A program made the position numbers and the translations under genes. The notes beneath the pieces were generated by a model, which did no database searches, was not told where the DNA came from, and saw only the letters and a program-made list of their open reading frames with translations. Shown here in pieces: positions 2,390-4,902 of a DNA stretch of 17,072 nt (positions are counted from its first letter, which is position 1; each line of letters begins with the position of its first letter). Source of the stretch: Dictyoglomus sp. NZ13-RE01 (GTDB lineage Bacteria > Dictyoglomota > Dictyoglomia > Dictyoglomales > Dictyoglomaceae); assembly GCA_002878375.1 (NCBI GenBank), contig NIRF01000020.1:1-17072 (forward strand), written 5' to 3'.

Positions 2390-2420
2390 AGGAGCTGGAA
2401 GATTTTTGCTTCCAGCTCCT
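2390..2420 (+). terminator. Intrinsic hairpin terminator between convergent genes
   Basis: AGGAGCTGGAAG (2390-2401) and its perfect complement (2409-2420) form a 12-bp stem with a 7-base loop. It closes the carbohydrate-binding-protein gene and overlaps the stop codon of the convergent deacetylase. The downstream T-run is weak on both strands. Confidence 0.75.
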
Positions 2421-3309
2421 AAATAGTTAAATTTCTCAAATCTTTATAAGAAATTATATTTATATTTTCTCTTTCTATAGTAGCTTTTACCAATTCATTT
2501 TTAAATACCAAAAACTCCCAAACCCTCTTTTCCCAAGTAGGATTAAAGGCTTTTATCTCATCACTCTCCACCGATGGATGAATAATAATCTCAGAAACTC
2601 CTGGTTTTAAATTTTTTAATAAATTAATAATCATACTTATAAAAGAGTTATATGAAGTGCATGTTTTAAGTTCATAAGGATAAGATATTAGATAATCAAT
2701 AATAGGTACGTTTTTCTTTTTTGCCATATCGACCAACTTCATATGAACATCAATTGCATCCTGTCCCATTCTCTTTAATACATCTTGGGGTAAGTATCGA
2801 GGAAGCCTCAAAGGAATATTATACTCTGCACAAATATCAATTAATAAATGAAGATAAGTTCTTCCATTAACATAATATAAGCTTCCCATATGGTTATCTA
2901 AATGGGATGGTGATATCCCAAATTTTTTTACCAAAAGTATCTGATTTCTAATCTCTTCTTCCAACTCCTTTTCATCCACATTACCAATCAAATCTTCCGC
3001 TCTTTCTGGAAAATATCCATACTTATCTGTTAATGTTGATACGCTTTTATTTCTTGTGACAGGTCCCCATTTATAATTTTTCCATTCACTGGTTAATGTT
3101 ATATGTACACCAATACTTACCTCAGGATGCATCCTCCCCCATTCTCCAGCCTCTATAGCCCAAGAGCATGGTGCCATTAAAGTAGCACCAGATATAACCT
3201 TATTCTCTAAAAGCTTAATTATTGCCTCATTCACCGAATGGCAAACACCAAAATCATCCGCAGTTATTATGAGGTACTTTGGTTTTTCTTTTTTCCTTTC
3301 CTCTATCAT
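2419..3309 (-). CDS. YdjC/ChbG-type carbohydrate deacetylase
   Basis: A 296-residue protein of the YdjC/ChbG family, metal-dependent (beta/alpha)-barrel enzymes that remove acetyl groups from N-acetylated sugars such as chitin-derived disaccharides. Visible landmarks are the N-terminal ITADDFG with Asp18/Asp19, GVHITLTSEW with His69, and SHLDNHMG with His136 and His140; the Asp-His-His set forms the metal site in this family. The ATG at 3309 follows GAGGGG. There is no signal peptide, so it acts in the cytoplasm. It is transcribed away from the DnaA-box cluster, whose left edge is about 70 bases upstream. No chitobiose genes are nearby, so the sugar substrate is open; a role with the sugar operon across the origin-like region is only a guess. 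Confidence 0.85.
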   Translation of the reverse strand: MIEERKKEKPKYLIITADDFGVCHSVNEAIIKLLENKVISGATLMAPCSWAIEAGEWGRMHPEVSIGVHITLTSEWKNYKWGPVTRNKSVSTLTDKYGYFPERAEDLIGNVDEKELEEEIRNQILLVKKFGISPSHLDNHMGSLYYVNGRTYLHLLIDICAEYNIPLRLPRYLPQDVLKRMGQDAIDVHMKLVDMAKKKNVPIIDYLISYPYELKTCTSYNSFISMIINLLKNLKPGVSEIIIHPSVESDEIKAFNPTWEKRVWEFLVFKNELVKATIERENINIISYKDLRNLTI

Positions 3310-3376
3310 TATTCCCCTCCTAAAAAACTATTTTTTATATTTTATCACAACTTTTTTCATTTTTATGATTTATAAA

Positions 3377-3647
3377 ATATCCACAGCTGTGGATAACTTT
3401 GTGGAAAAATTGTGGATAAGTCTGTGGATAACTCCCTTAAATTGTGGATAACTTTGTGGATAGAATTTTAAATGTGGAAACTGTGGATAAAATGTGGAAA
3501 GTTATCAACAAGATTAAACATTTATTCTTCAACGATTTTTAATATTTATCCACATTATCCACAGCTCTTACTACTACAACAATATTTTTTATTTTTTTAT
3601 AAAGAAAATTAAAATACATTATAGTTGTTGTTATAGGTTGTGGATAA
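3377..3647. other. DnaA-box cluster, candidate chromosomal replication origin (oriC)
   Basis: Within 271 bases there are eight exact DnaA boxes (TTATCCACA or its complement TGTGGATAA): 3388-3396, 3411-3419, 3423-3431, 3443-3451, 3482-3490, 3546-3554, 3555-3563 and 3639-3647. Near matches lie at 3377-3385, 3400-3408, 3455-3463, 3473-3481, 3493-3501 and 3502-3510. Boxes between 3388 and 3501 all face one way; those at 3502-3563 face the other. The tandem pair 3546-3563 is followed by GCTC, a TTACTACTACAACAA trio stretch and an AT tract, the arrangement of bacterial origin-unwinding sites. There is no dnaA, dnaN, rpmH or gyrB here, so a DnaA-titrating locus is an alternative. The 413 bases without a gene (3310-3722) hold this cluster, AT-rich flanks and the promoter of the next gene. 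Confidence 0.85.
3568..3604. other. DnaA-trio-like repeat and AT-rich unwinding element
   Basis: Directly after the tandem boxes at 3546-3563 and a GCTC spacer, the top strand reads TTA-CTA-CTA-CAA-CAA (3568-3582), so the complementary strand reads 3'-AAT-GAT-GAT. This matches the DnaA-trio element described in Bacillus subtilis, where DnaA loads on one strand to open DNA. A run of almost pure A and T follows (3581-3604), a natural unwinding site. Confidence 0.7.
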
Positions 3648-3654
3648 GTAAAAT

Positions 3655-3684
3655 TTGACTATTAGGTTTAATTTAAGGTATATT
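3655..3684 (+). promoter_or_regulatory. Promoter of the restriction-modification remnant
   Basis: TTGACT at 3655-3660 and TATATT at 3679-3684 are separated by 18 bases, upstream of the methyltransferase start at 3723 with its AAAGGGGGAAG ribosome site. It lies only 7 bases after the last DnaA box (3639-3647), so DnaA binding could affect it. Confidence 0.55.
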
Positions 3685-3722
3685 ATACAAAGAAGGTAAA
3701 ATTATTTTTAAAAGGGGGAAGA

Positions 3723-4601
3723 ATGTTACAGAGAATTGAAGAATTTAGCTCTTTTTTGACATATAATAATGAATTGTCAGAAAACAAACAGTTAGTTCTT
3801 TTTGATAATGTTCAGTTTATTTATGAATTAGCATTAGCTCAACTTGAATTGCATGCTCTTGGAGTAAAATTTGAAGTAACTAATGGACTAAGAGAGTTTA
3901 AACTATTAGAAGTAGAAGATGAAGAAGAACTCAGAAGGAGATTAGCATATTTTAAATTTGTAAAAGGAAAACCAACCGATTATTTTCAGATTATTCAAAA
4001 GAATAGAACACGCTCTGTAAATCAATATCTTACCCACTGGATTTATCCTTATAAAGGGAAATTTCATCCACAAATGATAAGGGCTCTTTTGAATATTATT
4101 GGAATAAAACAAGGTGAAACTATTCTTGACCCCTTTATTGGAAGTGGTACCACTGCTTTAGAAGCACAACTTTTAGGAATAAACTGTATAGGTATAGATA
4201 TATCACCTTTATGTGTTATTCAGAGTAGGGTAAAAACAGAATCATTAGACGCTTTCTCTGAAATAATAGAATGGAAAGAAGAAATAACAAGAAGTATAAA
4301 ACCATCATTATTTAATGTAGAAGGAAAGACTATTGATAATATTATAGAAACAATACCTAATGAGAAAGTAAAAAATTTTTATAAAATGGCAAAACTTGTT
4401 GCCGTAAGCGATAATGCAAGACGAGGCAAAAATTTTTCTCAATCATTTTTAAAAAATTTAGAGCTAATGATAGCTTCAGTTTCCGATTATATTGAAATAT
4501 CTAAAAAGCTAAATTTAAAATTAGGAAAAACTGATATTAGAATAGGTGATTCAAGGTCTCTTAATTTAGAAAATGACAGCATTGATGGAATTAGGATATA
4601 A
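3723..4601 (+). pseudogene. DNA methyltransferase, N-terminal piece (frameshifted, lacks catalytic motif IV)
   Basis: A 292-residue frame carrying the AdoMet-binding half of an amino (N6-adenine/N4-cytosine) DNA methyltransferase. THWIYPYKGKFHP (104-116) precedes motif I, DPFIGSGTT (136-144), and a motif II-like GIDISPL (157-163). The frame ends GDSRSLNLENDSIDGI then RI and stop. In this family IDGI is normally followed at once by the catalytic (S/N/D)PP(Y/F) motif IV and a DY segment; neither is present here or in the overlapping next frame. The homologous sequence resumes in frame +2 as ALMELGYNLSALREEFIGV. A deletion removing motif IV together with a frame change explains this best, so the enzyme should be unable to methylate. 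A natural two-subunit enzyme is less likely because motif IV is missing altogether. Confidence 0.75.
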
Positions 4602-4902
4602 TCTTTCTGCACTTAGGGAAGAATTTATTGGTGTGCGAGGTAAAGGTCAGGCAAGACTTGATTTATATAACGTGGATATGAAAAAAAGCTTGGAAGAGAT
4701 GTTTAGGGTTCTAAAGCCTGGAAGATATGCAGTTATTATAATAGGGAATGCAACCTATATGGGAGAAGAGATTAAAACTGTTGAATTTATAATAGATTAT
4801 GCAGAAAAGATAGGATTTAAACTAATCACAAATATAGATAAGATTATTTTTGGACTTTATAATGTGATGCAAAAGGAAAACATATTAATATTTAAAAAAT
4901 AA
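4573..4902 (+). pseudogene. DNA methyltransferase, C-terminal piece
   Basis: This frame overlaps the previous one by 29 bases and continues the same methyltransferase. LGYNLSALREEFIGVRGKG corresponds to the segment that follows motif IV in this family, and YNVDMKKSLEEMFRVLKPGRYAVIIIGNATY contains the late Rossmann strands. The apparent ATG at 4573 has no ribosome site, so it is probably not a real start. The stop at 4902 is 6 bases before the nuclease gene. If translated at all, it would be by reinitiation after the upstream stop at 4601. It ends in the expected hydrophobic strand (ENILIFKK), so only the middle of the gene is lost. Confidence 0.7.

Follow-up and report, generated by a model that had tools for sequence, protein, structure and literature searches.

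A very probable chromosomal replication origin away from dnaA in Dictyoglomaceae, with a predicted basal unwinding system and a candidate module facing it

In Escherichia coli oriC is not adjacent to dnaA, and displaced origins are already known as a kind; what is new in the Dictyoglomaceae locus treated here is its anatomy, a predicted basal unwinding system (BUS) with a putative module facing it. The oriC of Bacillus subtilis (incC/BUS) combines tandem DnaA boxes, a GC-rich spacer, DnaA-trios and an AT-rich element with distal boxes that supply DnaA (PMC6669920, PMC8287927). The BUS itself is laid out as a box pair, a spacer and trios (PMC8287927, PMC6669920), the preferred spacer measuring 13 nt from the first box (PMC8287927). 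Asn187 of B. subtilis DnaA makes contact with the adenine at the centre of every trio, and cells with thymine at this position of trios 1-3 grew worse and initiated less than those with cytosine (PMC10721633). In Thermotoga maritima, the box array of oriC lies next to an unwinding element whose three TAG triplets are essential (PMC10316083). Bidirectional replication requires a second helicase on the other strand, and how it is placed there is a stated open problem (PMC10201434). Among the papers searched none dealt with the Dictyoglomus oriC as such, and entries in the DoriC database may well exist; the genome announcement of D. thermophilum set the origin by co-localized dnaA, dnaN, recF and gyrA together with skew.

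The DNA analysed, hereafter the window, is a 17,072-nt stretch that makes up the whole of contig C20 in the draft genome (1,927,013 bases, 34 contigs) of Dictyoglomus sp. NZ13-RE01 (PMC5854780). An intergenic cluster of DnaA boxes, unusual in this genome, occupies 3377-3647 and is very probably oriC, the site from which this member of the Dictyoglomaceae replicates its chromosome (Table 1). A preliminary description of the window had counted eight exact and six near-exact boxes here and judged them far beyond chance, and both statements held on recounting: eight perfect copies of TTATCCACA, four with one mismatch and two with two mismatches are present, where Markov models of the window lead to an expectation of 0.003-0.006 exact boxes per 271 bases on both strands. 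Throughout the genome TTWTCCACA has 96 matches on both strands, nine of them inside the cluster; elsewhere there is never more than one per ~600 bases, and no second cluster is seen. The predicted AT-rich unwinding element lies beside the boxes, as in a bacterial oriC, and the 50-mer at 3574 is ~2.7 SD below the mean stability of the window, in which six other sites are equally weak or weaker. A search for RNA families and tRNAs across the window found none. The description was also right about the flanks, which it had given as a sugar deacetylase and a restriction-modification remnant transcribed away from the cluster; these are a YdjC-like deacetylase gene and a broken N6/N4 DNA methylase gene.

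Table 1. Features in and around the box cluster, in window coordinates (a sign after a start gives the strand of that box)
Feature	Position	Strand	Basis or detail
YdjC-like deacetylase gene	2419-3309	-	
Intergenic region holding the probable oriC	3310-3722		between the start codons of the YdjC-like gene and the DNA methylase gene
Very probable oriC, 14 DnaA boxes	3377-3647		counts, uniqueness in the genome, layout in relatives, skew minimum at homologues
Exact boxes	starts 3388-, 3411-, 3423-, 3443-, 3482-, 3546+, 3555+, 3639-		
One-mismatch boxes	starts 3377+, 3400-, 3455-, 3502+		
Two-mismatch boxes	starts 3473-, 3493-		
Inverted box pair at left edge (ATATCCACA / TTATCCACA)	3377-3396		inverted pair kept in 5/5 genomes
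Putative DnaA-oligomerizing array	3388-3510	-	boxes at 3388, 3400, 3411, 3423, 3443, 3455, 3473, 3482 and 3493 (-), one opposite at 3502 (+); most columns invariant among five genomes
Tandem head-to-tail boxes, putative BUS	3546-3563	+	two exact TTATCCACA, no gap
Spacer and putative DnaA-trio array	3564-3582	+	GCTC 3564-3567, then TTA CTA CTA CAA CAA 3568-3582
Predicted AT-rich DNA unwinding element	3583-3618		A+T 90% in 3583-3632
Facing trio-like array	3619-3638	-	spacer AC, then CTA TAA CAA CAA CTA TAA, inward from the far box
DnaA box on the far side, facing the tandem pair	3639-3647	-	no mismatch in the window, G003, G004 and G006; a single one in G005
N6/N4 DNA methylase gene	3723-4601	+	

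Five genomes were compared: that of the window, two of the same genus (G005 and G006) and two of the sister genus (G003 and G004). G004, a single contig of 1,855,560 bases, is taken to be D. turgidum, partly because its dnaA stands at the start of the record. G003 is D. thermophilum H-6-12 (PMC3931368), a single contig of 1,959,987 bases. With the 413-base intergenic region as query, one strong match was returned in each of the four relatives, where the order and spacing of the boxes are maintained across two genera and both tandem boxes are present with few mismatches; no cluster was found in G001 (86%) and G002 (72%), two further assemblies that are incomplete. The boxes of G005 and G006 are directly adjoined by a short-chain dehydrogenase gene, whose relative in the window lies 1.7 kb off on the other strand; the genes upstream of the cluster in G003 and G004 look like purE and purC when read by eye. 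In the relatives, the YdjC-like gene that adjoins the window's cluster lies elsewhere, is damaged or was not found. As the cluster is conserved while its neighbours differ between the genera, it is the DNA element that is conserved and not its neighbourhood.

Further observations concern the genes themselves. The methylase gene beside the origin (3723-4902) is broken, its two overlapping reading frames meeting at ~4573-4601, and the letters around GATGGAATT suggest either that the catalytic SPPY-type segment was lost by deletion between short repeats or that the assembly collapsed here. A YdjC-like relative in pieces, with an in-frame TAG, is present in the probable D. turgidum (G004 C1:298989-299615), and 526-1002 of the window, close to the contig end, encodes a small protein that resembles sigma-70 (regions 2 and 4) and starts with TTG.

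On the near side of the AT-rich zone, the spacer from the first tandem box to the trios is 13 nt, and the predicted DnaA-bound strand of the trios is the lower one, 5'-TTG TTG TAG TAG TAA-3'. For the C. difficile origin, the corresponding strand reads CACCTACTACTATTACTACTATGA (PMC7561715). All 25 near-side triplets in the five genomes fit YWA in register and none of 20,000 shuffles was as good, a probability that is optimistic here and below, as the genomes are related and not independent samples, and that comes from a test not fully blind, since the YWA pattern was chosen after the near-side arrays and pattern hits had been seen. A strict rule for the BUS was also applied, consisting of one or more DnaA boxes, a spacer of up to 16 nt and at least three adjacent trios with a central A on the bound strand; three canonical triplets after a 13-nt spacer from the first box place the near sides of the window, G004 and G006 within this rule, whereas only two canonical triplets lie next to each other in G003 and G005. 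Of the five triplets on the near side, two (three in G003) have T in place of the canonical A at the centre of the bound strand, a point against the proposed reading; in B. subtilis, thymine centres in trios 1-3 worked worse than cytosine (PMC10721633). Taken together, the tandem boxes, GC-rich spacer, trios and AT-rich zone are read as a BUS with a predicted role in unwinding.

On the far side, a pattern search showed a feature absent from the preliminary description: the last box points inward and is followed, two bases on, by an array of triplets on the opposite strand. The two facing modules could constitute a two-sided BUS able to load one helicase per strand, a more speculative role than that of the near side. 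An ordinary one-sided BUS, in which the facing box and triplets are an extra binding site in AT-rich DNA and seed no second filament, has close to an even prospect of being the true account. With the 2-nt spacer fixed, six of six triplets fit YWA in register in the window and 6, 5, 5 and 4 of six do so in the relatives, and this total of 26 of 30 was equalled by none of 20,000 mononucleotide and none of 20,000 dinucleotide shuffles, although the five genomes are related and G004 taken alone is not significant (P 0.19). When only one genome per genus is retained the count is 11 of 12, and the far-side sequences align poorly, so the register is maintained better than the letters, which speaks against a one-sided BUS; so does the rarity of TCCACA-N2-18-(YWA)4, for which only one match exists in the window's genome outside the cluster. 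In favour of a one-sided BUS, most far-side triplets of the window have T at the centre of the bound strand, and the two with a canonical centre are non-adjacent and so fall outside the strict rule; although it resembles a BUS, the far side is not classed as one because few triplets have the canonical centre. In the phyla sampled, no facing box with an inward array was found at the other BUS-like arrays that lie near dnaA. A hairpin or cruciform formed with the near-side array is a highly unlikely source of the far-side triplets: the 84-nt strand of the window folds better than shuffles (z -2.1), but neither complete relative has this fold (z -0.25 and -0.96, with other pairings), and the hairpin was rejected as unsupported there.

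That the cluster as a whole is a probable oriC away from dnaA, as the preliminary description had proposed, is supported by two of the checks that it named, GC skew and the location of dnaA, at the homologous cluster of the two complete relatives. In G003 and G004, from which skew was sampled in 60 stretches of 20 kb each (61% and 65% of bases), the minimum of cumulative GC skew coincides with the cluster; the change from negative to positive skew lies at most ~2 kb from it and the reverse change about half a chromosome away, skew being mostly positive from the cluster to roughly half-way round and negative over the remainder. The window's own local GC skew switches sign at the cluster. In the same two relatives dnaA is located 298 kb (G003) and 276 kb (G004) from the cluster, without a box cluster of its own, and its neighbours are genes other than dnaN, which is at yet another location; a search around dnaA in all five genomes revealed no box cluster. 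An oriC, and not a titration site, is concluded because the cluster is the sole one, is kept in relatives and has the skew minimum, with dnaA distant and lacking boxes. The large DnaA-titrating locus that had been offered as the alternative, datA-like and with replication starting near dnaA instead, would account for many high-affinity boxes far from dnaA but is scarcely credible, as both complete relatives have the skew minimum at the homologous cluster and not at dnaA, so that the cluster is not away from the apparent replication start, and as titration has no need of tandem boxes and in-register trios beside an AT-rich element.

The distance from parS to the cluster is 67 kb in G003, 74 kb in G004 and 9 kb in G005, and in the first two parS is nearer to the cluster than dnaA is. 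parS and parB are about 1 kb apart in G003, G004, G005 and G006; in the window's genome, parB and the only parS site are on different contigs (parS at C4:56422, parB at C9:47118). In the D. thermophilum record, dnaA and dnaN are ~285 kb apart, and the record start agrees with the skew and the box cluster and disagrees with dnaA and dnaN. The D. turgidum record (G004 C1:1) is numbered from dnaA, 276 kb off the cluster, dnaA being Dtur_0001 at the record start (PMC5167688).

The DnaA of the window's genome (L196:9577-10905) aligns over its full length with B. subtilis DnaA (8btg) and is predicted to read TTATCCACA by virtue of the box-reading motif GGRDHTTV in domain IV. Residues equivalent to Ile190, Ile193, Arg202, Glu228 and Arg264 are kept, and the first-base contacts Arg202 and Glu228 are retained in Dictyoglomaceae DnaA; the equivalent of B. 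subtilis Asn187 is Val in seven of seven Dictyoglomaceae genomes, and in 51 sequences of other genomes this position is N in 31, Q in 10, S in 4, V in 4, I in 1 and T in 1. Val187 with kept Arg202 and Glu228 fits triplets that are conserved at positions 1 and 3 and have A or T in the centre. Val187 may be linked to a relaxed trio centre, a hypothesis only, as other-phyla genomes with Val have mostly canonical trios. Co-variation of Val or Ile187 with central-T trios in other phyla was looked for and not shown, the trios of G041 and G035, both among the Val/Ile genomes, being mostly or wholly canonical.

A mechanism can be proposed in which DnaA, encoded far away, would bind the box array at 3377-3510 and oligomerize, and an ATP-DnaA filament from the tandem boxes (3546-3563) would extend onto the trio strand at 3568-3582. 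This near-side filament would melt the AT-rich element (3583-3618), and the facing box (3639-3647) with the other-strand triplets would seed a second, oppositely directed filament, by which each strand would be held open and able to receive one helicase. The full proposal, of two-sided origins in which opposite-strand modules encode both helicase placements and the trio code is relaxed to 3'-RWT-5' (purine, A/T, thymine), is offered tentatively and is rather doubtful as it stands. If working, the facing module would be a DNA-encoded solution for placing the second helicase, the problem posed earlier (PMC10201434), and a single thermostable protein with a 100-bp DNA would suffice to test it in vitro. 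Dictyoglomaceae, a deeply placed thermophilic lineage, would gain a conserved origin away from dnaA, and records numbered from dnaA, or origins called by it, would be off by some 280-300 kb.

In comparing the locus with known systems, tandem DnaA boxes, a GC-rich spacer, a DnaA-trio array, an AT-rich element and distal boxes with a putative role in supplying DnaA are shared with B. subtilis oriC. Unlike the B. subtilis origin, the Dictyoglomus cluster is not beside dnaA-dnaN, its trios partly have a central T, and a second box with triplets faces the first module, an arrangement undescribed in the BUS papers searched; the DnaA proteins differ as well, with Val here in place of Asn187. The oriC of T. 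maritima likewise belongs to a thermophile and has a box array next to the unwinding element, but its boxes are 12-mers versus the standard 9-mer TTATCCACA here, where boxes flank the predicted unwinding element on both sides. The displaced position is shared with E. coli oriC, from which the locus differs in its neighbours and box arrangement, dnaA being ~280-300 kb off here. As in E. coli datA, a box cluster is found away from dnaA; unlike datA, the Dictyoglomus cluster has the skew minimum and a predicted unwinding module.
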